Shown one piece after another: positions 34,720-50,721 of a stretch of DNA of 64,000 nt. The DNA comes from Polaribacter sp. HaHaR_3_91 (GTDB lineage: Bacteria; Bacteroidota; Bacteroidia; Flavobacteriales; Flavobacteriaceae), in the NCBI RefSeq assembly GCF_019278525.1, contig NZ_CP058986.1:2142001-2206000 (forward strand), in the 5' to 3' direction. Both the position numbers and the translations under genes were made by a program. The notes under the pieces are model-generated. The model did not search any database, had not been told where the DNA came from, and saw nothing but the letters and a program-made list of their open reading frames with translations. The first letter of the stretch is position 1. Each line of letters opens with the position of its first letter.

Positions 34720-34745
34720 AAGGCTGTAATTTTTTTTTGAACCAA

Positions 34746-34948: not shown

Positions 34949-35614
34949 ATGAACTTACAAGAAACATTAAACTGGAGATACACCACTAAGGAATTTGATC
35001 CAACCAAGAAAATATCTGATGCAGATATGGTGCAAGTTAAAAATTTACTAAGAATGAGTCCTTCAAGTGTAAACCTTCAACCTTGGCATTTTATTATTGC
35101 AGAAACTACCGAAGGAAAAGCACGTATGGCAAAGGGAACGAAAGGTTTTTTTCATTTTAACGAACCAAAAGTGGTAAACGCTTCTGCAGTTGTTTTATTC
35201 TGTTCAAAAACAAGTGAAGGTGCAGATGATGCTTATTTTAAACACCTTTTAGAGTTACAGAATAAAGATGGAAGATTCCCAAATGAAGACGTCAAAAATG
35301 GTATGTATGGAGCAATGAATGCTTTTGCAAACATTCATAAATATGACTTAAAAGACTATCAACATTGGATGGAAAAACAAGTATACTTAAACATTGGAAG
35401 CTTTTTATTAGGAGTTGCAAGTTTAGGAATAGATGCAACAGCAATGGAGGGTATTGATGTAAAAGCATTAGATGAAGAATTCGGATTAAGAGAAAAAGGT
35501 TTCACTTCTTTAGTAGCTGTTTCTTTGGGCTATAGAACTGAATCTGATTTTAATTCAACAGAAAAAACACCAAAATCTAGATTGGCTGAAAGTGAGATTT
35601 TTACGGTAATATAA
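34949..35614 (+). CDS. NfsB-like NAD(P)H nitroreductase
   Basis: The 221-residue flavoprotein begins MNLQETLNWRYTTKEFDP, with the FMN-binding RYTTKEFD and MSPSSVNLQPWHFIIAE segments. MEKQVYLNIGSFLLGVASLGIDATAMEG, near the C-terminal half, forms the dimer interface and FMN site of NfsB/dihydropteridine reductase-like enzymes. It reduces nitro compounds or quinones by two electrons. An in-frame open extension to 34817 is excluded because the consensus promoter lies within it. The divergent HxlR regulator probably controls it. Confidence 0.92.
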   Translation: MNLQETLNWRYTTKEFDPTKKISDADMVQVKNLLRMSPSSVNLQPWHFIIAETTEGKARMAKGTKGFFHFNEPKVVNASAVVLFCSKTSEGADDAYFKHLLELQNKDGRFPNEDVKNGMYGAMNAFANIHKYDLKDYQHWMEKQVYLNIGSFLLGVASLGIDATAMEGIDVKALDEEFGLREKGFTSLVAVSLGYRTESDFNSTEKTPKSRLAESEIFTVI

Positions 35615-35814
35615 ACTTTTAGGATATTATAGAATAAATGAACCTACAAGTATTTTTTTTGGAGCTTCTTAAAATTCGTTATAAAAAATATATACAGTTA
35701 CAGAAACATTATTTGCATAGGAAATAACGGTAATTTTAAGTCGAATAAACAGTATAAGTATCTGCTTTTTACTAATAAAATCTTTTGATCATAAATTAAA
35801 ATTAAGCGTATTAT

Positions 35815-35857
35815 AAAACCAATTAAATAAATTACAAGTTATTTAGTTGGTTTTTTT
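35815..35857. terminator. Terminator between the nitroreductase and zur-like genes
   Basis: AAAACCAATTAAATAA / TTATTTAGTTGGTTTT is a long stem with one mismatch and a T run on the plus strand. It sits at the end of the minus-strand Fur-family gene. The 200 bp between it and the nitroreductase hold no clear gene. Confidence 0.6.
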
Positions 35858-36236
35858 ATCCAATACATTCTTCACATTTCCCTTGTATAAGCACCTGGGA
35901 AAAAGCTATTTGTCTGTTCTCTATTTTAGGAATAACAACTTTTACTTGTAAGCATTCTACTTTACCGCAACTTAGACATTGAAAATGCGGATGCACATCT
36001 TTGTGCTCTGTAGCTGAACATCCGGTACATTTAGCATACCACTTAAGTCCATCTTTACCAAGAAAAGAATGCAAAACACCATCATCTTCTAGCTTATCTA
36101 AAATACGATATATCGTTGTTTTGTTAAATTCAGTATCTAATTGATTTATTAGCATTTTTGCAGAAATAGCTACAGAACTGTTTTTAAACTCATTAAGTAA
36201 TACTTCTACAGCCTTTGTTTTTCTAATAATTCCCAT
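35856..36236 (-). CDS. Fur-family repressor, probably the zinc sensor Zur
   Basis: The 126-residue protein starts at ATG 36236; an upstream in-frame ATG at 36254 lies inside the operator. It has a winged helix (KTTIYRILDKLEDDGVLH) and a metal-rich C-terminal half: C70, C73, H78, H82, H84, C87, C90, C95, then C121/C124. CLSC (87-90) with CEEC (121-124) is the structural zinc site of Fur proteins. I call it Zur-like because the divergent genes are the classic zinc-starvation set (COG0523 GTPases, FolE, zinc-sparing phosphatase). Fur or PerR specificity cannot be excluded from sequence alone. Confidence 0.85.
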   Translation of the reverse strand: MGIIRKTKAVEVLLNEFKNSSVAISAKMLINQLDTEFNKTTIYRILDKLEDDGVLHSFLGKDGLKWYAKCTGCSATEHKDVHPHFQCLSCGKVECLQVKVVIPKIENRQIAFSQVLIQGKCEECIG

Positions 36237-36240
36237 ATAA

Positions 36241-36271
36241 CAAATATAGTGCAACTTAGTTGTAATAACAA
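36241..36271 (-). promoter_or_regulatory. Promoter of the zur-like gene
   Basis: On the minus strand TTG (36271-36269), 20 bp, TATATTTG (36248-36241). The palindrome at 36250-36264 fills the spacer, implying autorepression. Confidence 0.65.
36250..36264. promoter_or_regulatory. Zur-like operator box 1
   Basis: TGCAACTTAGTTGTA is a 15-bp imperfect palindrome. It covers the spacer of the zur-like promoter and overlaps the -33 TTG of the opposite promoter. Confidence 0.7.
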
Positions 36272-36289
36272 ATTTATTATTTACATTTG
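36260..36289 (+). promoter_or_regulatory. Promoter of the putative zinc operon
   Basis: TTG (36260-36262), 19 bp, TACATTTG (36282-36289), an exact consensus match. Box 1 overlaps the -33 element and box 2 overlaps the -7 element. Confidence 0.75.
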
Positions 36290-36302
36290 CAACTCAGTTG
36301 TA
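36288..36302. promoter_or_regulatory. Zur-like operator box 2
   Basis: TGCAACTCAGTTGTA is identical to box 1 except for the central base and lies 38 bp from it, centre to centre. It covers the start-site region of the plus-strand promoter. Confidence 0.7.
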
Positions 36303-36316
36303 TTAATAAAATAGTA

Positions 36317-36721
36317 ATGATTATTTCAAAACAAAAATCCGATAGCATTGGTGCTATAGCAAGTTCTCTTTGTCTTATACATTGTGCTGCTACTCCCTTA
36401 TTGTTTATAGTGCAAGCAGGCGCATCAGCTTGTTGCAGTACGACACCTGTTTGGTGGAAATTTATAGATTATTTCTTTTTAGTAATCTCCTTTTTTGCCA
36501 TTTATAGATCTACGGAAACTACTACAAATACCTGGATGAAACCTGCTTTGTGGTTTAGTTGGTTGCTACTGTTTATTGTGATTATCAATGAAAAAATAGC
36601 ATTGCTTTCTATACCAGAAAGCGCAATTTATATACCAGCAATTGCACTAATTATTTTACATACCTATAATAGAAAATATTGCCAGTGTAAAACCGATAAA
36701 TGTTGTACAAATGAAAAATAA
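36317..36721 (+). CDS. MerC-domain membrane protein
   Basis: The 134-residue protein has four hydrophobic segments. The MerC signature SSLCLIHCAATPLL holds C19 and C23 in the first helix. MerC carries Hg(II) across the inner membrane; family members next to zinc regulators are likely to bind or move zinc instead (inference). A further CC pair follows the first helix, and the C-terminus is Cys-rich (YCQCKTDKCC). ATG 36317 is chosen because the promoter's predicted start site (~36296) lies after the upstream TTG codon. It overlaps folE by 11 bp. Confidence 0.82.
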   Translation: MIISKQKSDSIGAIASSLCLIHCAATPLLFIVQAGASACCSTTPVWWKFIDYFFLVISFFAIYRSTETTTNTWMKPALWFSWLLLFIVIINEKIALLSIPESAIYIPAIALIILHTYNRKYCQCKTDKCCTNEK

Positions 36722-37376
36722 AAAACAAATAGAAATTGTAGGTGACAATCATTTCTCATCAAGTATAAGAACACCTTTACGTGCAGATGCTTTTGATAAA
36801 AGTGATGAAGAAAAAATAGAAAACATCCAGTATCATTTTAAAAAGATCATGGAAGAAATGGGGTTAGATTTAACTGATGATAGTTTATCTGGCACCCCAT
36901 ATCGTGTTGCTAAAATGTATGTAAAAGAGTTGTTTTATGGCTTAAACCCTATAAACAAACCTAAACTATCCACTTTTGAAAATAAATATGGGTATAATAA
37001 AATGTTAGTAGAACAAAATATTACGATAGACTCTGCTTGCGAACATCACTTTTTGCCAATAATAGGGTATGCAAATGTGGCATATGTTCCTAAAGACAAA
37101 GTAATCGGTTTGTCTAAGATAAATCGGTTGGTAGATTATTATGCACGCCGTCCGCAAGTACAAGAAAGACTAGTACTTCAAATTTTGAACGATTTACAAA
37201 CTATTTTAGGTACTAAAGATGTAATTGTTTCGGTGACAGCAAAACACCTTTGTGTTTCTTCTAGAGGTATCAAAGATCAAAGCAGTTTTACAACCACTTT
37301 AGAATATGGAGGTTGTTTTACTGAAACAGAAAAACGTAACGATTTCTTAAAGATCATCGCTCAAGAAAAAATATAA
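36711..37376 (+). CDS. folE: GTP cyclohydrolase I (FolE type)
   Basis: FolE turns GTP into dihydroneopterin triphosphate, the first step of folate and pterin synthesis. The 221-residue protein has the zinc ligands C110 and H113 (CEHHFLPIIGYANVAYVP) and C181 (KHLCVSSRGI), and the GTP-binding segments GLSKINRLVDYYARRPQVQERL and QSSFTTTLEYGG. It is therefore the zinc-using type I enzyme, not the zinc-independent FolE2 type. SSRGIKDQSS replaces the more usual MRGVxKxxS. It overlaps the MerC-like gene by 11 bp, so the two are translationally coupled. Confidence 0.93.
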   Translation: MKNKKQIEIVGDNHFSSSIRTPLRADAFDKSDEEKIENIQYHFKKIMEEMGLDLTDDSLSGTPYRVAKMYVKELFYGLNPINKPKLSTFENKYGYNKMLVEQNITIDSACEHHFLPIIGYANVAYVPKDKVIGLSKINRLVDYYARRPQVQERLVLQILNDLQTILGTKDVIVSVTAKHLCVSSRGIKDQSSFTTTLEYGGCFTETEKRNDFLKIIAQEKI

Positions 37377-37428
37377 TTTAGCTTTTAATTAATTACGAAT
37401 TAATAATTATTTAACGCAAGAATGTAAT

Positions 37429-39102
37429 ATGGAATATAATCGAAGAAAATTTATATCTTTTATTGGTAAAGCAGGAGTAGGTTTAGCGGTTGCACCTCAG
37501 TTTTTAGTAAGTTGTGGCAATACAACAACTCCTGCAAAAGGAATTGATGTTATGTCTGATGACCAATTTAAAACTTTAAAAAATTTGGTTTTAGAAGGAT
37601 TATTGCCTTCGGATAAAGACGATTTATTATTAGCCAATGGATTAGAGTATCATTCCATCATTAAATGGGGAGAAAGCATTAATAATACTGATACTTTTGG
37701 ATTCAATAATGATTTTATCTGTTTTATCCCTTTGGATGAAAACAACCCTAAAGACGGTTTATTATGGGTAAATCATGAATATATAAATCCGTTTTTTGTT
37801 TCTGATTTTAATAAATCCGAAGAAAATAAAACACCAAAAACAAAAGAGCAAGTAGATAAAGAAATGTACAATGTTGGTGGCAGTATTGTACGAATAAAAG
37901 AGGAAAATGGCATTTGGAAAGTTGTTGAAAATGATCCTCATAACAGACGTATTACATCCCAAACCCCCATGACGCTAAATTGGGATACTCCAATTAAAGA
38001 AGCGACTACCGTATTTGGAACAAATAGTAATTGTTCTGGAGGAATTACACCATGGAAAACATTTATTACCTGCGAAGAAAACTATGATGCCTGTTTTGGA
38101 GAAACAGCATATGATGAAAATAACAATCCTTCTCATCGAGCAAGTGAATACGGATGGGAAACGTTTTATAACTATCCACCGGAGCATTATGGTTGGGTAG
38201 TTGAAGTAAATCCAAAAGACGGAACTGCACAAAAACATATCGCCTTAGGGCGTTTTGCACACGAATGTTGTACACTTTACGAACTAGAAGATAAACGTGT
38301 TGTTGCATATACTGGTGATGATCATAACGATGAACATCTGTATAAATTTATCTCTTCTAAACCAGGTTCTTTAAAAGAAGGAGCACTTTATGTGGCTGAT
38401 ACCATCAACGGAAAATGGTTGGCTATGGATTGGGAGAATCAACCGATTTTAAAAAGTAAATTCAAAGACCAAACAGAAGTTTTAATTAGAGCTAGAGAAG
38501 CTGCAAAACTAATTGGAGCTACTGCATTAAACAGACCTGAAGACATAGAAATAGATCCTATTACCGGAAACATTTTTGTCTCCTTAACAAATAACAAACC
38601 AAAAGGCGATTTCCATGGGTCAATTTTAAAAATTGAAGAAACAAATGGTGCTTTTGATTCGCTAACCTTTAAAGCAGAAACATACAAAGCAGGAGGAGAG
38701 GAACCAGGGTTTTCTTGTCCGGATAACTTAGCATTTGATTTAGCAGGGAATCTTTGGATGACATCAGACATGTCTGGAAGCGCAATGAATAAAGCTGATA
38801 CACCGTATTTACCTTTTAAAAATAACAGTTTATTTGTAATTCCGAGATACGGAAAAGACGCTGGAAAAGTAATTAGAGTTGCCACTGCACCAAATGATGC
38901 AGAGTTAACAGGTCCTTGGTTTTCTCCTGATGGTAAAACACTGTTTTTAAGTGTTCAACATCCTGGTGAACAAACAAAAGATTTAAGCAACCCAACGAGT
39001 ACTTGGCCTTTTGATAAAGACGATATACCGAAACCAGCAGTGGTAGCAATTACAGGAAATTTAATAGAAAAAATGAATAAATTAAATTTACTAGAAGTAT
39101 AA
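37429..39102 (+). CDS. PhoX-family phosphatase (DUF839), Tat-exported lipoprotein
   Basis: The 557-residue protein begins with a twin-arginine signal (YNRRKFISFIG) that ends in a lipobox-like FLVSC (C29), so it is exported folded. Family segments are SNCSGGITPWKTFITCEENY, GRFAHECC, TGDDHNDEHLYKFIS, RPEDIEIDPITGNIFVSLTNN, CPDNLAFDLAGNLWMTSDMSGS and [18 protein letters not shown]. PhoX phosphatases use iron and calcium, not zinc, to release phosphate from organic esters. That fits a role replacing zinc alkaline phosphatase in a zinc-starvation operon. The gene lies 52 bp after folE with no terminator between. Confidence 0.88.
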   Translation: MEYNRRKFISFIGKAGVGLAVAPQFLVSCGNTTTPAKGIDVMSDDQFKTLKNLVLEGLLPSDKDDLLLANGLEYHSIIKWGESINNTDTFGFNNDFICFIPLDENNPKDGLLWVNHEYINPFFVSDFNKSEENKTPKTKEQVDKEMYNVGGSIVRIKEENGIWKVVENDPHNRRITSQTPMTLNWDTPIKEATTVFGTNSNCSGGITPWKTFITCEENYDACFGETAYDENNNPSHRASEYGWETFYNYPPEHYGWVVEVNPKDGTAQKHIALGRFAHECCTLYELEDKRVVAYTGDDHNDEHLYKFISSKPGSLKEGALYVADTINGKWLAMDWENQPILKSKFKDQTEVLIRAREAAKLIGATALNRPEDIEIDPITGNIFVSLTNNKPKGDFHGSILKIEETNGAFDSLTFKAETYKAGGEEPGFSCPDNLAFDLAGNLWMTSDMSGSAMNKADTPYLPFKNNSLFVIPRYGKDAGKVIRVATAPNDAELTGPWFSPDGKTLFLSVQHPGEQTKDLSNPTSTWPFDKDDIPKPAVVAITGNLIEKMNKLNLLEV

Positions 39103-39125
39103 ATCAGCGTAAGCGTTTTTACAAT

Positions 39126-40031
39126 ATGGAAGCAATTATTACCATTGTCGGCTTTTTGGGATCAGGGAAAACTACTTTATTAAACTATTTAATAGATCGT
39201 TTTACTGAAAAAGAATGGAATCCTTTTGTGATCTTAAATGATTATGAAAATGCCAATATGGATGTACAGCAGTTTCTAGATAAAGTAAATAACAAACATA
39301 TAAAAGCGCTTACCGGAAGTTGTATTTGTTGCAGTGGCATACATGAACTTAGAAATTATGTAAACGGAATTCCTATTAGAAAAAACGGAATTACTTTAAT
39401 TGAAGCCAACGGAACATCAGATGCATGTACGCTTATGGAGTTTTTAGGAGTAGGTGTAAACAATCGGTTTTTACCACCTATACAAATCTCTGTGGTAGAT
39501 GTACTAAATTGGCAAAAACGTGGTGAACACAATGATTTAGAAGCGAATCAAATACAGGTATCCTCTTTAATTGTGTTGACACATCTTGATGGAGCTTCAG
39601 AACATAGGAAGGAATTGGTAATTAAAGACTTAAAAAAACACAACCCTTTTGCTAAAATTATCGCTATGGAGAAGCTAGATGTGGAGTTGTTACCCATTCT
39701 TTTACCTTCTAAAAATGTGGTTGATAAATTAGCGCATCAAAAAGCACATTGGTCTTCTTGTTCTATAGATTTACCTGTTTTACCTTCTAAAGAGTGCATA
39801 GATCTTATATGTAATCAGTTGCCTAAGAGTATACTTAGAGTTAAAGGTTGTGTACAAATAGCTAAAGAAACAAATTACACTTATTTTGAAAGAACTCCAG
39901 ACGGAAAAATATTTGTAAGACCTTTTAAAGGCGTGCCAATAACAGGAACTAAATTACTAACTATTGGTGCTGGTAGTGAACCTGCTGTTTTAGAACAAGC
40001 GATTGCAAATAGCTTAAATATCTTCAATTAA
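39126..40031 (+). CDS. COG0523 GTPase, small variant
   Basis: This 301-residue G3E-family GTPase has Walker [10 protein letters not shown] (9-17) and the metal-binding CxCC motif SCICCSG (C66, C68, C69). Walker B-like [14 protein letters not shown] follows. Where NKxD is expected it reads LTHLDG, an unusual guanine-specificity motif. A divergent C-terminal domain follows. COG0523 proteins are GTP-driven metallochaperones, and the zinc-related ones are Zur-regulated. It is 23 bp after phoX and 47 bp before a second, larger COG0523 gene. Confidence 0.85.
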
Positions 40032-40078
40032 TTACGATAACCTTCATAAATAATCCCAATTCTAAATATAAAATAATA

Positions 40079-41290
40079 ATGATAAAAGGAATTAAAAAAT
40101 TACCAGTAACTGTTTTAAGTGGATTTTTAGGAGCTGGTAAAACCACATTATTAAATCATATTTTGCATAACAAAGAAGGGTTAAAAGTAGCTGTTATTGT
40201 AAATGATATGAGTGAGGTGAATATAGACGCTCAGTTTCTAGAAAATGAAAACACACTTTCTAGAACCGAAGAAAAGTTAGTCGAAATGTCTAACGGATGT
40301 ATTTGCTGTACTTTACGAGAAGATTTAATGATTGAGGTTGAAAAACTAGCTGCTCAAAATAAATTTGATTATTTACTTATAGAAAGCACCGGAATTAGTG
40401 AACCGATTCCTGTTGCTCAAACTTTTACATTTGAAAGTGAAGATGGTAAAATAGATTTAAGCAAGTTTAGCTATATAGATACGATGGTTACGGTGGTAGA
40501 TGCTTTTAATTTCTTAAAAGATTTTTCTAGTGCAGATTATTTAGCCACAAGAGAGTTGACGAATATAGAAGGAGACGATAGAACTATTGTAAACCTGTTA
40601 ACAGACCAAATTGAATTTGCAAACGTAATTATTTTGAATAAAATAGATTTAGTTACTGAAGAACAAGTAGCAACGCTGCATGCAATTATTCAAAAATTAA
40701 ATCCTGAAGCAAGTATTATTACCACACAAAACTCTAAAGTTGTAATAGAAAGCGTTTTAAACACGGGGTTATTTGATTATGAAAAAGCAGAAGCTTCTGC
40801 AGGTTGGTTAAAAGAATTAGAAAATGAGCACGTGCCAGAAACGGAAGAATACGGAATTAACTCTCTCGTTTATAGGAGTAAAAAACCATTTCATCCAGCG
40901 CGATTTTTAAACTATTTAAATACAGATTTTCCTCAGAATATTATAAGAAGTAAAGGGCTTTTTTGGTTAGCCTCTAGGTCTGACCAAGCTTTACTTTGGA
41001 GTTCCGCAGGAGGATCTTGTAAAGCAGACTCTGCAGGTGTTTGGTGGGCATCAATGTCTTTTGGAGAACGCATTAGTTCTGCTGTTTTTGTAGAAAATAA
41101 AGACGATATAGAAAAAGGTTGGGACGCCATATATGGAGACCGTAAAATAGAATTAGTTTTTATTGGTCAATATTTAGAGAAAGAAGCCATAATCGCTCAA
41201 TTAAACACTTGTTTATTAACTGATAAAGAAATAGAAACATGGAAAACTAAATCATTTCCGCAAGAAGATCAATGGCCAATAACACAATAA
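40079..41290 (+). CDS. COG0523 GTPase, ZigA/YciC-like zinc chaperone candidate
   Basis: The 403-residue protein has Walker [10 protein letters not shown] (15-23), CxCC in [12 protein letters not shown] (C74, C76, C77), [17 protein letters not shown] and a standard NKxD (ILNKIDLV). The C-terminal CobW domain has [15 protein letters not shown] and ends in a region rich in Trp and Gly ([12 protein letters not shown]). The length and C-terminus match the YciC/ZigA group, which delivers zinc to client enzymes when zinc is scarce. A likely client is FolE, encoded in the same run. The ABC genes start 22 bp downstream. Confidence 0.9.
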
Positions 41291-41312
41291 AAACATCACT
41301 AAAATAAATCAC

Positions 41313-42023
41313 ATGATTAAAACAGAAAAACTGACAAAGAAATATGGAGATTTTGTTGCCTTAAATGAATTATCCTTACAGGTAAAACCAGGCGAAATAT
41401 ATTGTCTTTTAGGTGCTAATGGAGCGGGAAAATCTACCACTATAAATTTATTGTTAGGTTTTCTAAAAGCAACTTCTGGTACATCATTGATTAATGGAAT
41501 AGATGTTGAAAAGAACAATTTAGAAACCAAAAAAGACATCTCTTATATTCCCGAAAACTTAATATTGTACCCAACATTGAACGCTGTAGAAAATCTTGAT
41601 TACTTTTCTGGTATCGGTGGTCAGAATTTAAAAAAGGAACAGTTAGAATCTCTTTTAACACAAGCTGGTTTACAATCGGATGCTTTTTACAAACGCACCA
41701 ATGCTTTTTCTAAGGGAATGCGACAAAAAGTAGGGATTGCTATTGCACTTGCTAAACAGGCAAAAGTACTTTTGTTAGATGAACCAACCTCTGGTTTAGA
41801 TCCTAAAGCAAGTAACGAATTTGGTTTATTACTACAAGAACTTAAAAAGAAAAATGTAGCTATTTTAATGGCTACTCACGATCTTTTTAGAGCAAAAGAA
41901 ATCGCTACAAATATAGGGATTATGAAAAACGGACAATTGTTAGAACAATTTGTTTCTAAAGACATTTCTTTATCAGAATTAGAGAAAGTATATCTTAAAA
42001 CCATGATTGTAAATACGCCGTAA
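41313..42023 (+). CDS. ABC-2 type transporter ATP-binding protein
   Basis: The 236-residue ATPase has Walker A GANGAGKST, Q-loop SYIPENL, an atypical signature SKGMRQKVGIAIAL, Walker B VLLLDEPTSGLDP and H-loop ATHD. The SKGMRQK signature is typical of ABC-2 exporters of the NosF/CcmA-like group. It lies 2 bp before the first of two DUF3526 permease genes and must energise them. The substrate is unknown. Confidence 0.92.
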   Translation: MIKTEKLTKKYGDFVALNELSLQVKPGEIYCLLGANGAGKSTTINLLLGFLKATSGTSLINGIDVEKNNLETKKDISYIPENLILYPTLNAVENLDYFSGIGGQNLKKEQLESLLTQAGLQSDAFYKRTNAFSKGMRQKVGIAIALAKQAKVLLLDEPTSGLDPKASNEFGLLLQELKKKNVAILMATHDLFRAKEIATNIGIMKNGQLLEQFVSKDISLSELEKVYLKTMIVNTP

Positions 42024-42025
42024 AA

Positions 42026-43435
42026 ATGATTAAAAAAACAATTATAAAAGAAATCCAAGAGCTCTTTAGAGATGGTCGTGTTAAACTTTCTGGAATTATT
42101 GTATTGTTATTATTGCTTGTTTCGGTTTGGATAAGCAGAAATCAATATAAAAAATCGATTGGAGAAGTAGCATCAGCAAAAACAGAAGAACGTGCTGTTT
42201 GGGAAAATCAGGGAGAGAAAAATCCGCATTCTGCGGCACATTATGGTAATTATGTATTTAAACCTAAACATCCACTTTCGTTATTAGATCAAGGGGTTAA
42301 TAAATACACAGGTACTTCTATTTTTTTAGAAGCACACAAACGTAATGAAGCACAATATAGTAGTGTTGCAGACCAAACAGGTTTGGCGCGTTTTGGAGTG
42401 CTTTCACCAGATTTTATTTTACTATTTATCTTACCGCTTTTAATTATTTTAATAGGATATAATAGTGTTACCAAAGAAAGAGAAATGGAAACTATGGCTT
42501 TATTAAAGAGTCAGGGTATGGTATATTGGAAAATGATTTTAGGAAAGTGGGTCTCTATTTTTCTGCCTATTTTTATTCTTACAACCTTATTATTTGTGCT
42601 TTCGGGTATGGTACTCTCATTTATAGAAGGCTATACATCGTTTAGTTGGCTTTCTTTAGGTTTATTGCTATTGATCTATTTATTTTATTATACTGTATTT
42701 ATCAATATTGTACTTTTTATTTCTATTCAAGTTAAAAAATCGAGTGTGTCGCTTGTTGTCGCATTGGGTGTTTGGATTATCTCTTGCTTAGTAGCGCCAA
42801 AAGTTGCTAGTAATTTTGCGGAATCAAAATATCCATATCCAACTCATCAAGAATTTGCGACTACTATTTCTGATGCTAAAAAAGAAGGGTTAGACGGACA
42901 TAACCCTTGGAGTGAAGCTTCTAAACAATTAGAAAAAGACGTGTTATTAGAATATGGTGTGGATAGTTTAAACCAACTTCCTTTTAATTTTATTGCGTAT
43001 CGTATGCAAAAAGGAGAGGAGTATCAAGCTAGTATATATAAAAAGCATTATGCTGTTTTAAAGGCACAGTTTCAAAAGCAAGTAGCTACGTACAATACAC
43101 TTTCTGTTATTTCACCGTTTCTTTCTGCTCGATTTTTATCTATGGGAATTGCTCGTACGGATTATCAATCTCATTGGGATTTTGCTGATGCTTCTGAAAG
43201 TTATAGAATTGAAACACAAAAGTTTTTAAATGATAATTACGCGAATAACACAAGTTATATGGAGCGTGGTTATTTAGCAAAATCAGATACTTGGAAAAAC
43301 CTTCCGAAGTTTGAGTACGAGCATGTAAACTTAAGTACTGTTTTAAAACAACAGAAAATTAGTATGCTTATTTTATTGGCTTGGGTATTGTTTACCACCT
43401 CTTTATTATTCGTTTTTAACCGTAAAAAAAATTAA
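42026..43435 (+). CDS. ABC permease with DUF3526 domain, first of two
   Basis: The 469-residue membrane protein has one N-terminal helix (GIIVLLLLLVSVWIS), a ~100-residue periplasmic part, a block of five helices (about 130-270), a second large periplasmic part and a C-terminal helix. After the helices comes a segment NFAESKYPYPTHQEFATTI, typical of DUF3526 permeases. TKEREMETMALLKSQGMVYWKMILGKW is the cytoplasmic coupling region. It likely pairs with the next permease as a heterodimer. Spacing to neighbours is 2 and 7 bp. Confidence 0.87.
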   Translation: MIKKTIIKEIQELFRDGRVKLSGIIVLLLLLVSVWISRNQYKKSIGEVASAKTEERAVWENQGEKNPHSAAHYGNYVFKPKHPLSLLDQGVNKYTGTSIFLEAHKRNEAQYSSVADQTGLARFGVLSPDFILLFILPLLIILIGYNSVTKEREMETMALLKSQGMVYWKMILGKWVSIFLPIFILTTLLFVLSGMVLSFIEGYTSFSWLSLGLLLLIYLFYYTVFINIVLFISIQVKKSSVSLVVALGVWIISCLVAPKVASNFAESKYPYPTHQEFATTISDAKKEGLDGHNPWSEASKQLEKDVLLEYGVDSLNQLPFNFIAYRMQKGEEYQASIYKKHYAVLKAQFQKQVATYNTLSVISPFLSARFLSMGIARTDYQSHWDFADASESYRIETQKFLNDNYANNTSYMERGYLAKSDTWKNLPKFEYEHVNLSTVLKQQKISMLILLAWVLFTTSLLFVFNRKKN

Positions 43436-43442
43436 CTATCGC

Positions 43443-44870
43443 ATGCTGTACTATAATTTTAAATATGAATTAAAAATACTTCTGCGCAGTCGTTGGATAC
43501 AGTTGATTAGTATTCTTTTATTGGGTTTATTTGTTTTTGCTGCTTTTAATGGCGAAAATAAAGTAGAAAAAAGGAAAGTAAATATTTCGAAAGCAAGAAC
43601 TGAAGTGCAAGCTTCAGATAAAAACATGCTAGCTGTTTTAGATTCTTTGGAAAACGGAATGAATGTGCATGTGTCTCGTTATAAAATTCCGACGAGCCCA
43701 ATTTCTATTGGAAATTACTACCCTAGAGTTGCTGCAATGGATCCTAATGATATGGGCTTTTTAGCTGTAGGACAAAGTGATATTTTTACGCATTATGTAT
43801 TGCCAACCGTATTTGGAGATGATTTTGCACTGAATTTCACCGAAATGACCAGTCCAATTCAGTTGCTTTTTGGAAGTTTCGATTTAATGTTTGTCATCGT
43901 TTATTTACTTCCGTTGCTTATTATAGCATTTTCTTACAATGTTTTATCCGAAGAAAAAGAAAGAGGTACTTTACGTTTGTTGGCATCACAACCGATCTCT
44001 ATTAGAAAATGGGTATTGCAAAAATTAGCCATGCGCTTGTTTTGTTTGTTTGTCATTATTATTGTGGTATCCGCCATTGTATTTGGTTTTTTCGCTAATG
44101 TACCTTTTATAAGTTTCCTTTCGTTTTTAGCCCTGGTATTTTGTTATATGCTATTTTGGTTTAGTTTGGCTTTTGCTATTAATATTAGTAGCTCTAAATC
44201 TGCAAAAAACGCTTTGTCTCTTTTAGGATTATGGATTGTTTTTGTATTGCTAATGCCTTCTATTATCAGTCAGACCGGAGATATTTTTTATCCAATTCCG
44301 CCAAGAACAGAAATGATTAGTGAAATACGCGAACACAAAGCAGCAGCTACTAAAAAGCAAGATCAAATATTAGATAACTTTTTAAGAGATCACCCCGAAT
44401 ATGCTGTAAATGATCCATCTCAAGCGCGTTCGTTTTGGCACGGATATATTGCTTCTCAGCAATTAATTAAAGAAGAATTGGAACCACTTTTCTCTGATTA
44501 TGAAGATAAATTAAAAAAACAACAATCTTGGGTATCTAAATTTCAATGGATATCTCCAGCAATTATTACGCAAAGTGCCTTAGGTACTATGGCAGGTACT
44601 ACAAAAGAAGATTATAACAATTACCAAAATCAAGTGTATCAATTTGCTGCAGATTGGCGTAATTATTTTGTTCCTTTATTGTACAACAACAAAACGTTTA
44701 ATAAAACGATGTATAAGGAATTACCAACATTTACGTATGCGCCTAAAAAAGATCATTCTTTACTTTATGCCATTGTTGGTTTGTTACTAATTTCTGTGGT
44801 TGTTATTGCCATTACCATGTTTAGTTATACCATCAATTTAAAAAGAAAAGGAATGGTATTGATGCAATAA
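43443..44870 (+). CDS. ABC permease with DUF3526 domain, second of two
   Basis: The 475-residue paralogue of the preceding protein has the same layout: N-terminal helix (WIQLISILLLGLFVFAAF), an extracytoplasmic part, a five-helix block with the coupling motif SEEKERGTLRLLASQPISIRKWVLQKLAMR, then SQTGDIFYPIPPRTEMI and a long extracytoplasmic segment before the last helix. Tandem DUF3526 permeases with one ATPase occur in Bacteroidota, some near TonB receptors; their cargo is not established. A 47-bp gap without a terminator leads to the next ABC genes. Confidence 0.87.
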   Translation: MLYYNFKYELKILLRSRWIQLISILLLGLFVFAAFNGENKVEKRKVNISKARTEVQASDKNMLAVLDSLENGMNVHVSRYKIPTSPISIGNYYPRVAAMDPNDMGFLAVGQSDIFTHYVLPTVFGDDFALNFTEMTSPIQLLFGSFDLMFVIVYLLPLLIIAFSYNVLSEEKERGTLRLLASQPISIRKWVLQKLAMRLFCLFVIIIVVSAIVFGFFANVPFISFLSFLALVFCYMLFWFSLAFAINISSSKSAKNALSLLGLWIVFVLLMPSIISQTGDIFYPIPPRTEMISEIREHKAAATKKQDQILDNFLRDHPEYAVNDPSQARSFWHGYIASQQLIKEELEPLFSDYEDKLKKQQSWVSKFQWISPAIITQSALGTMAGTTKEDYNNYQNQVYQFAADWRNYFVPLLYNNKTFNKTMYKELPTFTYAPKKDHSLLYAIVGLLLISVVVIAITMFSYTINLKRKGMVLMQ

Positions 44871-44917
44871 TGATGTCAATTAAAAATATAAAGTAAAAGT
44901 GTCATAAACACATTAAA

Positions 44918-45547
44918 ATGCTAAAAACAAGTAGTCTTACTTTTCAATATAATAAAAATGATCGTATTTTTAGTTTTCCTGATATCGCTTTAGATAAAAA
45001 CGAAAACTTACTCGTTATAGGAAAATCGGGTATTGGTAAGACTACTTTTTTACATTTATTGGCAGGATTATTAGAACCTGTAAATGGGACTGTTGTAGTT
45101 AATGATATCGATATTAATGCATTGTCTAACCACAAATTAGATGCTTTTAGAGGGGAGAATATCGGACTTGTATTTCAGAAAAAATATGCAATTCAAGCTT
45201 TAAATGTATTTCAAAACCTACAAGCGAGGCTTTTATTTAGTAAAAAACCGATTAATCATAAGGAAATAGAAGTTTTATTAGCGCAATTAGGTTTATCTGA
45301 ATTTAAAAAAAGTAGCATAAAAACACTTAGTGAAGGCCAATTACAACGTTTAGGTATTGCTTTAGCAGTGATTCATAAACCTAAAATTATTTTAGCAGAT
45401 GAACCTACTTCTAGTTTAGACGATGAAAATTGTGAAATTGTGATGAATTTACTCCTGAAACAAGCAAAGCAAACTGGAGCGAATTTAATTGTAATTACAC
45501 ATGATCAGAGAGTAAAACCGTTCTTTAATAAAACCGTTTTATTATGA
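44918..45547 (+). CDS. ABC ATP-binding protein, LolD-like
   Basis: This compact 209-residue ATPase shows Walker A GKSGIGKTT, Q-loop VFQKKYAIQALNVFQNL, signature LSEGQLQRLGIALAV (LSEGQ in place of LSGGQ), Walker B IILADEPTSSLD and H-loop ITHDQR. LolD/MacB-type proteins work with FtsX-like permeases by mechanotransmission and not by classical transport. Its stop overlaps the ATG of the His-rich permease gene by 4 bp (ATGA), so the pair is tightly coupled. Confidence 0.9.
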   Translation: MLKTSSLTFQYNKNDRIFSFPDIALDKNENLLVIGKSGIGKTTFLHLLAGLLEPVNGTVVVNDIDINALSNHKLDAFRGENIGLVFQKKYAIQALNVFQNLQARLLFSKKPINHKEIEVLLAQLGLSEFKKSSIKTLSEGQLQRLGIALAVIHKPKIILADEPTSSLDDENCEIVMNLLLKQAKQTGANLIVITHDQRVKPFFNKTVLL

Positions 45548-46773
45548 AAATCTGGAGTATAAGTCTACATAATATAAAATCGAAACCTTTATATACTTTT
45601 TTAAGTGTCTTTATTTTGACGCTAAGTATTGCTCTTTTAATAGGAATTCAACAATTAAAAAACGCTTTTAAAAACCAAATTGAAAACAATGTAGGAAATA
45701 TCGATTTAGTAATAGGAGCAAAGGGAAGTCCGTTACAATTGGTGCTGGCTTCGATATTGCATTTAGACAATCCTACTGGAAATATTTCTTATGAAGAAGC
45801 CAAAAAAATTGGCAAGCATCCAATGATACAATCTGCCATACCTATTTCTTATGGCGATAATTACAAAGGATATAGAATTGTAGGAACTACCAAAGACTAT
45901 TTTGGTATTTACAAGGCGGAATTAGAAAAAGGAAGATTTGTATCAGCCTCTATGGAAGTTGTTTTAGGAGCTACTGTGGCAGCACAATTACATTTAAATA
46001 TTGGTGATACTTTTTTAAGTTCTCACGGTTTGGTAGAAAATAGTTTAGATGTGCATCAAGATGCAATAACTGTAGTTGGAATATTAAAGCCTACACAAAA
46101 AGTTATTGATCGTTTATTGATTACTAATTTAGAAAGCATTTGGGATGTACATCATCATGAAGAGGAAAAACATGAAGAACATGCAGCAGGGCATCATGAT
46201 GAACACGATGTACACCACGAGGAAAATAAAGAAATCACCTCTTTATTAGTTCGTTTTAAAAGTAAAAGAGCACTTGTAAGCATGCCTAGAAAAATAAATA
46301 AAGACACCAATATGCAATCTGCATTGCCTGCTTATGAACTGAATAAACTACAGGAATATACAAACATTGGTTTTAAAACCATTTCAGGAATCGCTTATTT
46401 AATTTTAGTAATTTCTTGTCTCACAATTTTTACGAGTTTGTATAAAATGGTAAAAGAACGTGCTTTTGATTTGGCTATTTTGCGTACCTACGGAGCTAGT
46501 AATTTTCAATTGGTGCAAATGGTTTTATATGAAGCACTAACTATTGTATTTACAGCCTTTTTATTGGGTTTTCTGTTTGTTAAAACAGTCTTCTTTTTTA
46601 CACTAATTAGCATGCAAACTAATTATCAGCAAGATGTACTGCAAGCATTGCCTTTTAAAGATTTATTACAAATAGCAAGCCTCATTTTTACAATGATAAT
46701 TGTATCGGTTGTATTGGCTATTTATCCTATTATAAAAATGAATATTTCAACAATTTTAAGTAATGAAAAATAA
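45544..46773 (+). CDS. FtsX/MacB-like ABC permease with His-rich metal-binding loop
   Basis: The 409-residue protein has four helices in the LolC/E layout: one N-terminal helix (PLYTFLSVFILTLSIALLIGI), a periplasmic domain and three C-terminal helices. The periplasmic domain contains an insertion at about residues 201-228 with ten His and many Glu/Asp (VHHHEEEKHEEHAAGHHDEH). Such loops bind Zn(II) or Ni(II) and are typical of zinc carriers. It overlaps the preceding ATPase gene and the following DUF3299-like gene. In the context of a Zur-like repressor I infer periplasmic zinc handling or import. Confidence 0.88.
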   Translation: MKIWSISLHNIKSKPLYTFLSVFILTLSIALLIGIQQLKNAFKNQIENNVGNIDLVIGAKGSPLQLVLASILHLDNPTGNISYEEAKKIGKHPMIQSAIPISYGDNYKGYRIVGTTKDYFGIYKAELEKGRFVSASMEVVLGATVAAQLHLNIGDTFLSSHGLVENSLDVHQDAITVVGILKPTQKVIDRLLITNLESIWDVHHHEEEKHEEHAAGHHDEHDVHHEENKEITSLLVRFKSKRALVSMPRKINKDTNMQSALPAYELNKLQEYTNIGFKTISGIAYLILVISCLTIFTSLYKMVKERAFDLAILRTYGASNFQLVQMVLYEALTIVFTAFLLGFLFVKTVFFFTLISMQTNYQQDVLQALPFKDLLQIASLIFTMIIVSVVLAIYPIIKMNISTILSNEK

Positions 46774-47200
46774 ACAATTACTTCTTGTTTTGCTTTTCTG
46801 TAGCTTTTATGGTTACAGTCAACAAGAAATTACTTGGCAAGATTTAGCAGCAGTAACGTATACAGATAAATTTTTTACAGAATATAATGAAACTTTTATG
46901 TATCCTACTTTTTTACCGTCTGTAAAGGCGTTAGATGGAAAACAAATTACTATTAAAGGGTATTTTTTAAATATTGCTCCAGAAGAAAATATTTACATAT
47001 TATCTAAAGGACCTATGTCTTCTTGTTTTTTTTGTGGAGAAGGTGGTCCAGAAACTGCAGTAGAACTTTATTTTAAGAACAAACCAAATTTTAAAACAGA
47101 TAAAATTGTAACCGTAACAGGTGTTTTAAAGTTAAATAGAGACGATGTGGAGCATTTTAATTATATTTTAAGAGAATGTACAGGTAAATTAATAGAATAA
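46763..47200 (+). CDS. Exported DUF3299-like protein with CxxC
   Basis: The 145-residue protein has a signal peptide (MKNKQLLLVLLFCSFYGYSQ) and a small beta-rich domain: LDGKQITIKGYFLNI, then ENIYILSKGPMSSCFFCGEGGPETAVEL, and IVTVTGVLKLN, which resembles an OB fold. C88 and C91 form a CxxC that could bind metal. I believe it belongs to the DUF3299 group, known to me next to FtsX-type ABC genes in zinc-regulated operons of gamma-proteobacteria (zrg-like); this is from memory of the family. Overlap with the permease gene (11 bp) supports a joint function. Confidence 0.75.
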   Translation: MKNKQLLLVLLFCSFYGYSQQEITWQDLAAVTYTDKFFTEYNETFMYPTFLPSVKALDGKQITIKGYFLNIAPEENIYILSKGPMSSCFFCGEGGPETAVELYFKNKPNFKTDKIVTVTGVLKLNRDDVEHFNYILRECTGKLIE

Positions 47201-47242
47201 AAAAAGGATACTATTTTTTAAATTATTAGCTTTCGGCCTTAT

Positions 47243-47998
47243 ATGAAAACCATGAAATTATTACATTTTATTTGCGGTCTACTGCTTGTAGTTTCTTGCA
47301 AAAAAGCCGATCAGCAACTCACAAAAATAACGGCTAAAAACATTGCTATAGACATTACATTTGTACCATCTACAAAAATAACAAATCTCATAGCACCTTA
47401 TAAAGAACAACTTACCGGTGATATGCAAGAAACCTTAACGTATACACCTATAAAGTTAACCAAGCAAAATATTGGCAGACAAAGTACTTTAGGCAACCTA
47501 TTGGCAGATATGTGTGTAGCAGTGGCAAACCCACTTTTTAAAGAGAAAACTAATAATTCTATCGATTTTTCGATGTTTAATAGTGGCGGAATTCGTGCGA
47601 GCATTCCGGCAGGAAACATCACCAAAGAACACGCATTTAAATTAATGCCATTCGATAATGAATTGGTTGTTGCTACCCTTACAGGTGATAAAATAAAAGA
47701 ATTAGTTACCTATTTTATAAAAAACAGCGCCGCACATCCTTTGTCTAAAAATATAGAACTTACCATTACAGGAGACACGTATACATTACTAATTAATGGC
47801 AAGCCATTGGATAAAAAGAATACCTATACTGTATTAACTTCAGATTATTTACAAGATGGAGGCGATAAAATGAACTTTTTTAAAAATCCTGTAGCATTAA
47901 CTGTATTAGATTACAAAATGAGAGATGCTATTATAGATTACTTTAAAAAAGTAGATACATTACAAACTACCATTGATAACCGTGTAAAACTGAACTAA
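47243..47998 (+). CDS. 5'-nucleotidase C-terminal-domain lipoprotein
   Basis: The 251-residue lipoprotein has signal LLHFICGLLLVVSC. It corresponds to the C-terminal, substrate-binding domain of UshA-type 5'-nucleotidases: GRQSTLGNLLADMCVAVA, FSMFNSGGIRASIPAGNITKEHAFKLMPFDNELV and SDYLQDGGDKMNFFKNP. It lacks the metallophosphatase half, which is encoded by the next gene; the two genes share one base. The products probably assemble to hydrolyse nucleotides or sugar nucleotides outside the cytoplasm. Confidence 0.9.
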   Translation: MKTMKLLHFICGLLLVVSCKKADQQLTKITAKNIAIDITFVPSTKITNLIAPYKEQLTGDMQETLTYTPIKLTKQNIGRQSTLGNLLADMCVAVANPLFKEKTNNSIDFSMFNSGGIRASIPAGNITKEHAFKLMPFDNELVVATLTGDKIKELVTYFIKNSAAHPLSKNIELTITGDTYTLLINGKPLDKKNTYTVLTSDYLQDGGDKMNFFKNPVALTVLDYKMRDAIIDYFKKVDTLQTTIDNRVKLN

Positions 47999-48912
47999 TG
48001 AAAAGAAGAGATTTTATAAAACGTACAGGAGCCTTTTCTACTATGGCCTTAGTTGGTGGTATTACATTACCGTCTTTTATTGCAAAAAAACAAAGACATA
48101 TTACTATTTTACACACCAATGATACGCACAGTCATATAGAACCTTTTAAAGCCAACCACAACAGATTTCCGAATGGAGGAGGAGTAGCAAGACGCGCTAC
48201 CTTGATAGAACAAATACGAAAAGAAAATGAAAACACCTTGTTATTAGATGCTGGTGATATTTTTCAAGGAACGCCTTATTTTAATTATTTTGGAGGAGAA
48301 TTGGAGTTTAAGTTGATGAGTATCTTAAAATATGATGTCGCTACAATTGGTAATCATGATTTTGACAATTCTATAGAAGGATTGTACAAACAATTACCAA
48401 ACGCTAAGTTCGATTTTGTTTCTGCCAATTACGATTTTAAAAATACAGTGTTAGATACGCATGTGAAACCTTATAAAATACTGCATAAAGACGGACTTAA
48501 AATAGGTGTTTTTGGTTTGGGGATTGAGTTAGAAGGTTTGGTAGGTAAGAAGATGTACAAAGAAACCGGTTATTTAAATCCGATTGAAATTACACAAGAT
48601 ATTACACGTCAATTAAAGCAAGAAGAACAATGCGATTTGATTATTTGTTTATCGCATTTAGGATATTATTATAAAAGCAATCCAGATAAAGTTTCAGATT
48701 TAACACTAGCGAAGGCTACTAAAGACATCGATTTAATTATTGGCGGTCATACCCATATTTTTTTACCAAAACCAACCATTGTAAAAAATGCAGACGGAAA
48801 AAATACTTTGGTCAACCAAGTAGGAGCTTATGGTGTAAACTTAGGACGTATTGATTTTTATTTTGATGAAGATGCAAATAAAACTGCAAAAGGAACTACT
48901 ATTTTGGTGTAA
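47998..48912 (+). CDS. 5'-nucleotidase, metallophosphatase-domain protein
   Basis: The 304-residue protein has a twin-arginine-like signal (MKRRDFIKRTGAFS). All dimetal phosphoesterase motifs are present: LHTNDTHSHI, LDAGDIFQGTP, TIGNHDFDN, IICLSHLGYY and IGGHTHIF. It is the catalytic half of a UshA-type 5'-nucleotidase, whose substrate-binding half is the preceding gene (1-bp overlap). It is the last gene of the long same-strand run. A GCAAACC/GGTTTGC inverted repeat (48921-48970) lies in the 3' region but has no T run. Confidence 0.92.
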   Translation: MKRRDFIKRTGAFSTMALVGGITLPSFIAKKQRHITILHTNDTHSHIEPFKANHNRFPNGGGVARRATLIEQIRKENENTLLLDAGDIFQGTPYFNYFGGELEFKLMSILKYDVATIGNHDFDNSIEGLYKQLPNAKFDFVSANYDFKNTVLDTHVKPYKILHKDGLKIGVFGLGIELEGLVGKKMYKETGYLNPIEITQDITRQLKQEEQCDLIICLSHLGYYYKSNPDKVSDLTLAKATKDIDLIIGGHTHIFLPKPTIVKNADGKNTLVNQVGAYGVNLGRIDFYFDEDANKTAKGTTILV

Positions 48913-49165
48913 TTAACATTGCAAACCCGAAATACTTTATTTTCAGATTGTTACTCTTATAAAGGTTTGCTAATCTAACAAAGCAACAAGTTCTGAACAT
49001 TAAATTAAAGCATAAAACTGAAAAAAAAACAAAATATTTTTAGGTCATTTATGAAAACTTTGTATATTCGCACACCTTAAGAAAACAAGGTAGTTCTTTA
49101 CAACAAAATCTGATGTTATTTGGTTTACTTTTACAACAGATTTGTAAGAAAAAAATAAGTAAAAA

Positions 49166-49247
49166 GGGGAGATACTCAAGCGGCCAACGAGGACGGACTG
49201 TAACTCCGTTGACTACGTCTTCGCAGGTTCGAATCCTGCTCTCCCCA
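49166..49247 (+). tRNA. tRNA-Tyr (anticodon GTA)
   Basis: The acceptor stem GGGGAGA / TCTCCCC closes an 82-nt class II tRNA with a long variable arm. The anticodon stem-loop is ACGGA-CTGTAAC-TCCGT with GTA at 49200-49202. The T arm is GCAGG-TTCGAAT-CCTGC. The 3' CCA is not encoded (ACAA follows). A possible promoter -7 variant, TATATTCG, lies at 49063-49070. Confidence 0.95.
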
Positions 49248-49908
49248 CAATTACTTTCCTCTTTAAAATGAATTAAATTCCTTCTTAATTTTCAGCATTA
49301 AACCGTTTACATTACTTCTTATTTTTAACATTTTAACCATCAATATTCAATTATTCTGTACTAGATTTTTTTTTATCTAAAACCAGTTAAATACTTATTT
49401 TTATACCTCTAAAAATTAGACAAGACGTTTTTAAATGTTTTAAAAAATAGATCAAGTATTTTAAAGGCTCGGGAAATTGGTGAAAGAATTATATCAAAAA
49501 TGAAAAAATTTATTGATGTATTTGTTATAGGAATGACTGCGTAATTTATAAACTTAAATAATTATTACTTCCTGTAGAATCGCATATTTGAAAATTATTT
49601 AACCATTATACCGAATATTCAATTCTAGTGCCAACTAGAAAAACAGATTTGGTGTTATTTCTTATATTATTTATTGTTGGATTGAATCCATAACATTTAT
49701 ACTACAATCATAGAACACAATTAACTTTAAATATTAAAATATTATCGTAAAATTGCATTAAATAAATATGTATTATAATTTATATTATGTTAAATAGGTT
49801 TTTAAAGAACATACAATCCTCTCTTTAAATTGGTAAATTATATAAATACAGCTATTAAGTATAAAACAGCTGTTTTTGTAAAATTTGATAAAACTAAGAA
49901 CTAAAAGA
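49248..49908. other. Gene-free AT-rich stretch
   Basis: I see no credible gene in these ~660 bp. There are scattered stops in all frames and only very short open stretches. One open segment (stop-bounded, ~45 codons, ending ...MKKFIDVFVIGMTA at ~49544) has protein-like composition but no proper start, and could be a relic. A weak hairpin with a T run (ACAGCT/AGCTGT, 49848-49878) lies just before the convergent RDD gene. Confidence 0.6.
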
Positions 49909-50721
49909 TTACATATTCTGTGTGTAGAAATTATAGTCCTTTAAAACAACATCTAAGAACTCTTTATCTGTTTTGTGAATAGATTTTATTCCGGTGACTT
50001 CTAAAACTTTAGAGCGAAGTTTTATTAAGGTTTTAAAATCGTTATATTTCTTTGCTGAATTAAACGTGTTTTTAATAATACGAACATCATTGTCAGACAG
50101 TTTAATAACATTCGGATACGTTGGTACATAAGCATTTGAAATATTTTCTAAGATGGTTTCAGAAAACTGTACATCATCCTTTAGGTAAACAACAACCGTA
50201 TTAGCAATGATATCGCCAAAACGTTGTTGATTATCTGTGAATAATATCAATAAAAAACCAATCATTTTTCCAAAGAAAAAAAGCAACATTAATAAAGCTA
50301 CTTCATCATCTAATCCTAATGAAGCCACATAAACAAATAGTAATGTAAAAAGGTTAAAATCTACCACTCTTAAAAACCAACGGATGATGAAATCTGTTGT
50401 AGAAGGTTTAAAACCATCAATATTAATTACCTTTAAATGGAATAATTTTTTACCTACTGTTTGTCCGTTTAAGAGTATTTCTGAATACAAAGAATAAAAG
50501 GTAACTGGCAGAAAAATGAGTACATCTATGGCACGTAAAGACCAAGAATCTCCTTCCAATGCGGTTTGAAACATTCTAAAATCTAAAATTTCAATGGCAA
50601 AATAGAGATATGCAAATTTTATAACATTATCTACTCCAAATGCAAATAGCCTTTGGCCAACATTTGCAAGGGTAAAATTGATGTTTACATTTTGTGCTGT
50701 TTTTATTTGGAGTCTTTTCAT
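49909..50721 (-). CDS. RDD-family membrane protein
   Basis: The 270-residue protein starts MKRLQIKTAQNVNINFTLANVGQRLFAFGVDNVIKFAYLY; the 47 codons open upstream have no family resemblance. RDD domain features are RLFAFGVDN (Arg and Asp), NGQTVGKKLFHLKVI and RWFLRVVDF, with four or five membrane helices. The C-terminal ~90 residues are soluble. RDD proteins have no single function; some are Na+/H+ antiporter-like. It is divergent by only 22 bp from the SpoIIM-like gene and belongs by context with that cluster. Confidence 0.88.
   Translation of the reverse strand: MKRLQIKTAQNVNINFTLANVGQRLFAFGVDNVIKFAYLYFAIEILDFRMFQTALEGDSWSLRAIDVLIFLPVTFYSLYSEILLNGQTVGKKLFHLKVINIDGFKPSTTDFIIRWFLRVVDFNLFTLLFVYVASLGLDDEVALLMLLFFFGKMIGFLLILFTDNQQRFGDIIANTVVVYLKDDVQFSETILENISNAYVPTYPNVIKLSDNDVRIIKNTFNSAKKYNDFKTLIKLRSKVLEVTGIKSIHKTDKEFLDVVLKDYNFYTQNM

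Follow-up and report, generated by a model that had tools for sequence, protein, structure and literature searches.

A run of thirteen genes in Polaribacter sp. HaHaR_3_91 is, with good probability, the principal operon of a Zur-type regulon that answers zinc starvation in marine Flavobacteriaceae. The run lies within the window analyzed here, the 64,000 nucleotides at positions 2,142,001 to 2,206,000 of contig NZ_CP058986.1, and an open reading frame (ORF) check places all thirteen ORFs on the plus strand at 36317-48912, with a divergent Fur-family gene on the minus strand at 35856-36239. Successive genes are separated by -11, 52, 23, 47, 22, 2, 7, 47, -4, -11, 42, and -1 bp, and the check confirms what an earlier inspection of the letters alone (the sequence-only reading) had described: thirteen same-strand genes with gaps of no more than 52 bp, some of them overlapping, divergent from a Zur-like gene. 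The likely start codons bounding the divergent spacer are ATG 36317 (merC) and ATG 36239 (regulator), rather than the TTGs found upstream of each.

The 77-bp spacer between these starts holds two 15-bp palindromes (TRCAACTNAGTTGYA), 38 bp apart, that lie on both outward promoters. Flavobacterial promoters take the form TTG-N17-23-TAnnTTTG, and each outward direction contains a match to it. The elements of the control region are as follows.

35856-36239, minus strand: Zur-like Fur-family repressor, likely start ATG 36239 (PF01475, 32.1 bits; invariant Cys and His residues)
36250-36264, no strand: operator 1, TGCAACTTAGTTGTA, a 15-bp palindrome conserved upstream of the regulator
36288-36302, no strand: operator 2, TGCAACTCAGTTGTA, starting 38 bp from the start of operator 1
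36260-36289, plus strand: promoter-like TTG-N19-TACATTTG for the operon (match to the flavobacterial form)
36241-36271, minus strand: promoter-like TTG-N20-TATATTTG for the regulator gene (match to the same form)

The TTG of the merC-side promoter falls within operator 1, which is separated by 1 bp from the TATATTTG of the regulator promoter; the TACATTTG of the merC-side promoter overlaps operator 2 by its last 2 bases. Dimers on both operators would block both promoters. We suppose that zinc-loaded repressor dimers occupy the two palindromes, shutting off the operon and the repressor's own gene, and that falling zinc would release the repressor. The operator core, GCAACTNAGTTG, is present in only 2 exact copies in the 4.2-Mb genome, both within this spacer.

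The operator is conserved with the regulator. In what follows genomes carry G numbers (the window's own genome is G000) and loci carry L numbers. A search of 147 related genomes for the regulator (E <= 1e-3) gave matches in 82, and many of these matches are distant paralogues; a second collection contributed the named loci, which are the 80 best of 289 and come mostly from Flavobacteriaceae (e.g., Polaribacter, Maribacter, Cellulophaga, Tenacibaculum, Aquimarina, and Zobellia). When identical 100-bp upstream sequences were counted once, 96 of 101 loci were kept, and the best site in the 150 bp upstream of the regulator had zero, one, or two mismatches in 60, 20, and 8 of these 96 distinct loci (88 in all), as against 3, 1, and 4 of 1264 upstream windows of other genes at the same loci. 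For zero-mismatch sites the Fisher p is 3.5e-75, a value that is descriptive because the loci are related. Where a pair of sites exists (summed mismatches <=4), its members are exactly 38 bp apart in 60 of 67 loci.

The same operator also appears elsewhere in regulator-carrying genomes. Since motif counts (discussed below) fail to separate genomes with and without the regulator, we used site location instead, taking all sites with <=1 mismatch outside the regulator promoter in 16 genomes with the regulator, part of the regulator-carrying set, and 16 without it (10 with no match and 6 with only a 25-28% identical paralogue); we counted the promoter of an additional regulator copy in G039 (site 940403) among the regulator promoters. 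Sites directly upstream of operon-type genes made up 10 of 50 in the first set and 0 of 40 in the second (one-sided Fisher p 0.0018). The ten sites precede these genes, where c6 is a small His-rich protein, iotaCA encodes an iota-carbonic anhydrase (iota-CA), and c11 is its usual neighbor.

G080: merC-folE-iotaCA-c11-COG0523, site pair 38 bp apart
G080: c6
G080: merC-ABC-ftsX, site pair 38 bp apart
G048: TonB receptor
G036: c6-TonB
G066: TonB receptor
G066: merC-folE-COG0523, site pair 39 bp apart
G066: iotaCA-c11-phoX, site pair 38 bp apart
G002: iotaCA-c11
G000 (window's own genome): c6-TonB

Of the TonB matches, two are weak, at 22% and 38% identity; the sites of G000 and G036, which are close relatives, are not independent. 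The palindromic operator lies over promoters of zinc-acquisition and zinc-sparing genes, a zinc role assigned by family name. The dual operators conserved on both promoters, the recurrence of the operator ahead of the same families in relatives, and the count of 0 of 40 such placed sites in the 16 genomes without the regulator all support the divergent control by a Zur-like repressor that the sequence-only reading had proposed. What these sites predict is a dispersed Zur-type regulon, of which the window carries an unusually long one-operon version.

The site in the window's own genome belongs to a second locus (G000:C1:3465500-3475500, L292), in which a ChaN/Tiki-family gene, a related operator, c6, a TonB receptor, and two DUF4625 lipoproteins follow one another. 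The best NCBIfam match of this receptor is ZnuD, at 155.8 bits over almost the whole length of the protein, under a cut-off of 950. The c6-TonB-DUF4625 set of G050 is part of the regulator's operon, which provides an independent link between the window operon and the second locus.

The thirteen genes of the run, all on the plus strand, are listed here with the evidence for each.

36317-36721, plus strand: gene 1, MerC-family membrane protein (PF03203, 4e-21)
36711-37376, plus strand: gene 2, FolE (GTP cyclohydrolase I), the genome's second copy, zinc ligands kept (Pfam GTP_cyclohydroI; ligand pattern)
37429-39102, plus strand: gene 3, PhoX phosphatase (PF05787, 1.8e-99; PDB 3zwu, 3e-55)
39126-40031, plus strand: gene 4, short COG0523 GTPase without CobW_C (PF02492, 5.9e-25)
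40079-41290, plus strand: gene 5, ZigA-like COG0523 GTPase (NF038288, 565.2 bits, cut-off 600)
41313-42023, plus strand: gene 6, ABC ATPase (PF00005, 5.6e-33)
42026-43435, plus strand: gene 7, DUF3526 ABC-2 permease (PF12040, 1.9e-27)
43443-44870, plus strand: gene 8, DUF3526 ABC-2 permease (PF12040, 1.1e-27)
44918-45547, plus strand: gene 9, MacB/LolD-type ATPase (PF00005, 3e-28)
45544-46773, plus strand: gene 10, MacB-type permease with His-rich loop (PF12704 and PF02687)
46763-47200, plus strand: gene 11, small protein with leader, OB-fold model, CFFCG segment (no Pfam match; 16-sequence alignment; model)
47243-47998, plus strand: gene 12, 5'-nucleotidase C-terminal domain protein (PF02872, 1.5e-26)
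47998-48912, plus strand: gene 13, calcineurin-like phosphoesterase, the 5'-nucleotidase N-terminal domain (PF00149, 4.6e-21)

The Pfam families represented (MerC, GTP_cyclohydroI, PhoX, cobW twice, ABC_tran twice, DUF3526 twice, MacB_PCD with FtsX, 5_nucleotid_C, and Metallophos) bear out the labels first given to the MerC, FolE, and PhoX proteins, the two COG0523 GTPases, the DUF3526 system, and the split 5'-nucleotidase. We envisage that, once the repressor is released, zinc would be acquired and allocated by the MerC-like protein, the two COG0523 GTPases, and the MacB-type ABC pair with its small secreted partner, and, from the second locus, by the ZnuD-like TonB receptor with its two DUF4625 lipoproteins. 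The second FolE and PhoX would reduce the need for zinc or serve as back-up for zinc enzymes; in relatives a metal-independent iota-CA is placed under this operator too. Transport and phosphate release would be the general roles of two add-on modules, the DUF3526 ABC system and the split 5'-nucleotidase.

The genome contains two copies of folE, and the operon copy retains the CEHH and HxCxxxRG motifs (Cys-His-Cys ligands), both of which are present in 55 of 56 homologues; in the remaining one, the folE of L097 (ori 10855-11520), a Tyr replaces the third zinc-ligand Cys (KHLYVSSRG). A supply of zinc to FolE by COG0523 GTPases has been proposed for ZagA and ZigA, and we read the operon FolE as a probable back-up supplied by the operon's own COG0523 GTPases, not a zinc-free isozyme. 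Gene 5 has ZigA as its best NCBIfam match; the score falls below the equivalog cut-off, and we class the protein only as a ZigA-like COG0523 GTPase. Genes 9 and 10, first taken for a LolD-like ATPase with a His-rich permease, look more like a split MacB-type pair than LolD alone. A PDB sequence search with the permease gave no match.

Gene 11 follows the MacB-type permease in relatives, keeps its CFFCG segment across the 16-sequence alignment, and is modelled as an OB-fold. The DUF3299-like label it had carried is not supported: no profile match was obtained in the genome at E 10, a search in which 14 control genomes likewise gave none above cut-off, nor in 16 homologues at E 1. A DUF3299 protein is associated with the PA4063-PA4066/Zrg system, and since it was looked for and not found, we have not classed the MacB-type block as a PA4063-PA4066 system. 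The 5'-nucleotidase, split over 47243-48912, has its domain order reversed, with the gene for the C-terminal domain first, so the split is not a frameshift; the pair is found in 5 of 96 loci, window included.

The presence of PhoX and iota-CA was examined in 35 sampled genomes, 19 with the regulator and 16 without, and both were found only alongside the regulator. Of the 19 genomes, 12 have a PhoX homologue, and of the 16, none (p 6e-5); with intact genes alone the count is 9 of 19 (p 0.0013), the other three, in G055, G010, and G039, being broken or remnant. Intact phoX lies in the divergent operon in G000, G036, G037, and G046; downstream of the regulator and zigA, and on the same strand as the regulator, in G025; behind an operator-like site elsewhere in G066, G079, and G015 (in G079 by the relaxed consensus only); and behind a COG0523 gene in G002. 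The gene 3 protein has, as read by eye, a twin-arginine-type leader with a lipobox-like Cys, and the string NCSGG-TPW-TCEE, which we take to be metal-binding, is present in 14 of 15 homologues (L098 lacks the exact string). The solved member of the PhoX family uses iron and calcium. PhoA as the zinc counterpart of PhoX was only partly supported: of the 19 genomes that have the regulator 6 contain PF00245, as do 2 of the 16 that lack it; the family co-occurs with PhoX in G000, G036, G037, and G046 and is absent from G066, G079, G015, G025, and G002, where PhoX is intact.

Iota-CA was found in 6 of the 19 regulator-carrying genomes and in none of the 16 others (p 0.017), and all six copies have an operator-like site upstream or lie inside the regulator's operon; the sites in G079 and G071 fit only the relaxed consensus drawn from the 96-locus set of regulator sites. 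No iota-CA match was found in the window's own genome. The relatives' protein matches PDB 7c5x at 2.7e-78 and scores 105.6 bits with the NF047901 model ('metal-independent carbonic anhydrase'), below that model's cut-off of 350. The published account describes metal-free activity for iota-CA (COG4337) and the importance of Thr106, Tyr124, His197, and Ser199 (PMC8132391); all 12 homologues have the segments that we map to these residues, KPT..Y and HHSS. The neighboring c11 family of about 165 amino acids (L123:7889-8383, minus strand, with ten homologues, e.g., L107:5457-5954, plus strand) gave no credible match in sequence searches, and its predicted structure has a beta-carbonic-anhydrase (beta-CA) fold. 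The zinc site of beta-CA is Cys-His-Cys with a GHxxCG segment; no such site is conserved in c11, where C9 alone is invariant in 11 rows and positions 63-67 (S-x-[DKEN]-N-x) include neither a conserved His nor a conserved Cys. We suggest tentatively, at a little short of an even chance, that the regulon swaps enzyme chemistries at low zinc: PhoX for phosphate release, metal-free iota-CA for CO2 hydration, and zinc-ligand-free c11 as a partner of iota-CA.

The regulator itself matches PF01475 (FUR) above the cut-off of 23.1 bits, and C71, C74, H83, H85, C88, C91, C96, C122, and C125 are invariant in a 22-row alignment; among 102 homologues the CxxC-HxH-CxxC-C pattern is present in 100 and the C-terminal CxxC in 92, so that the CxxC pairs for structural zinc and the regulatory His/Cys positions of a Zur are represented. 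A set of observations nevertheless weighs against a zinc-starvation regulon: (i) at E 1e-3 in NCBIfam the regulator has weak matches to Fur and PerR models only and none to Zur, and its profile finds a ferric uptake regulator as the top match in PDB, with Zur chains close behind, so that sequence alone does not tell whether it is a Zur or a Fur; (ii) a second Fur-like gene in the window's genome (L293:4350-4769; C1:2945849-2946268), 28% identical to the regulator, is the gene that matches the Zur model, weakly, at 27.2 bits with a cut-off of 167; (iii) a haem-receptor model scores 149.3 bits with the L292 TonB receptor, just under ZnuD; (iv) the ChaN/Tiki-family gene of that locus (PF04187, L292:6929-7813) diverges from the c6-TonB operon across a common operator region; (v) c6 copies in G013 (two), G025, G002, G048, and G015 have no clear operator; (vi) genome-wide motif counts were rejected as proof of a regulon, sites with <=1 mismatch numbering 2-9 in genomes with the regulator and 1-7 in those without, with reversed-pattern controls at 0-5 and 0-3; and (vii) a zinc-independent FolE was rejected, the operon copy having its ligands intact.

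Several of these points would suit a Fur-family protein that senses something other than zinc (iron or haem, manganese, cobalt, or peroxide), with the operon answering that signal: the Fur and PerR matches, the haem-receptor score, the ChaN/Tiki-family gene across the operator, and the location of the second Fur-like gene, which lies between an efflux gene set and a heavy-metal (zinc/cadmium-type) P-type ATPase, in the company of an RND efflux protein, and is possibly a metal-excess regulator. We consider such a sensor quite unlikely, as the metal-independent carbonic anhydrase, the ZigA-like COG0523 GTPase, and FolE fit zinc, and an iron-starvation regulon should not induce PhoX if PhoX uses iron. 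We infer that zinc is the signal sensed from the nature of the cargo, from the ZigA-like and ZnuD-like proteins, and from the presence/absence pattern.

The content of the divergent run varies widely among the 96 distinct loci: merC is present in 77, folE in 51, COG0523 in 26, the ABC ATPase in 24, the MacB-type permease in 16, gene 11 in 14, phoX in 13, c6 in 10, the c6-linked TonB receptor, iota-CA, c11, and the DUF3526 permeases in 8 each, the two DUF4625 lipoproteins in 6 each, the two nucleotidase genes in 5 each, and a PhoA-type phosphatase in 4; 13 loci have no divergent run. These counts suggest that the window operon is a lengthy array of modules that have come and gone around a core of regulator, merC, and folE. 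Among the 96 loci only the window has every gene of the set, the next being Polaribacter irgensii (L130) with 9 of 10 module types; synteny of the whole is confined to this strain among these loci, and the regulator, the operator, merC, folE, and other modules recur singly. The regulator of G036 is 98% identical to that of the window, and the genome is without the zigA-to-gene-11 block; in G037 (L047) part of that block is inverted and folE occupies two frames. In G055 (L057) folE and phoX are both interrupted, and we read the state of G037 and G055 as operon decay. A ZIP-family transporter gene (PF02535, L059:3011-3688) lies a few genes behind merC and is part of the run in 2 of 96 loci.

The same counts speak to the suggestion that the operon serves mainly to scavenge phosphate or nucleotides, with its metal genes serving the phosphatases. 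PhoX and the two-gene 5'-nucleotidase of the window and the PhoA-type genes of 4 loci are what one would expect of such an operon; merC and folE are far commoner in the run than phoX or the nucleotidase, no phosphatase lies behind most of the ten outside sites, and we hold this explanation to be very improbable.

A single thirteen-gene transcript is predicted from the layout of the run. It is rather unlikely, though less so than a different signal, that the thirteen genes form two or more transcription units of which the operator controls only the first. Modules are gained and lost independently, several of them have their own operator in relatives, and there would be room for starts in the gaps of 47, 47, and 42 bp; against this, the gaps are short, the only operators with <=1 mismatch inside the run are the two at its head, and the matches to the promoter form beyond 36260 (40338 and 41743, plus strand) are both intragenic. 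The sequence-only reading had described one promoter and no visible terminator; besides these two promoter-like matches the run has two plus-strand terminator-like signals, each likewise intragenic (36603 and 48055). The promoter form has 12 matches on the plus strand and 6 on the minus strand of the whole window, terminator-like signals on both strands of 34500-51000 number 12 against 7.9 expected, and a sigma-70 promoter scan was uninformative (78 found, 81 expected). A tRNA-Tyr lies at 49166, beyond the 3' end of the run.

Co-limitation by zinc and phosphorus, or by zinc and carbon, in the sea is usually argued from the metal needs of enzymes. An operator-defined regulon with PhoX and iota-CA would supply a genetic switch for co-limitation tests in culturable Polaribacter-type bacteria, and, if the regulon does swap enzyme chemistries at low zinc, zinc scarcity would directly set phosphorus and carbon chemistry in marine Flavobacteriaceae. 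With such a regulon, several unnamed families (gene 11, the His-rich c6, the DUF4625 lipoproteins, and c11) would gain a suggested role, and the Flavobacteriaceae a response to zinc starvation, no regulon of this kind having been found described there in the literature searched. That search, which covered literature other than subscription papers and preprints, found among the matches listed no Zur regulon described for Flavobacteriia, and no paper that joined PhoX with Zur or zinc limitation or iota-CA with Zur.

The closest known systems are the Zur regulons of Proteobacteria, which include COG0523 genes, FolE paralogues, and a carbonic anhydrase paralogue (PMC2770081). The system described here resembles those of Haas et al. 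(2009, PMC2770081) and of Cupriavidus metallidurans (PMC10882993) in its Zur-type repressor, its COG0523 proteins, and its FolE paralogue, and likewise in having zinc-enzyme paralogues, Cam being the carbonic anhydrase among theirs; in C. metallidurans, moreover, one operon carries two Zur boxes. It differs in operator, in lineage, and in a cargo of PhoX, MerC, DUF3526, DUF4625, and iota-CA, and its FolE keeps the zinc ligands rather than being metal-promiscuous. The Pseudomonas aeruginosa genes PA4063-PA4066, Zur-regulated and proposed to export a pyochelin-cobalt complex, share with the vibrio Zrg clusters a MacB-type transporter split into ATPase and permease genes, with a small neighboring gene, as is seen here (PMC11481552). 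The MacB-type block may work like PA4063-PA4066; it departs from these clusters in that gene 11 has no DUF3299 match and no ZrgA-type gene was seen in the window's operon. The L292 receptor, its best match being the zinc-piracy TonB receptor ZnuD at a score far below the cut-off, can be likened to ZnuD only in how it would work. The relatives' iota-CA is like the known enzyme in sequence and in key residues (PMC8132391), but here it is found under a Zur-type operator and with a partner of predicted beta-CA fold. A Zur regulon with COG0523, FolE, and carbonic anhydrase paralogues was already known; what appears to be new is the operator, the lineage, and the zinc-sparing cargo.

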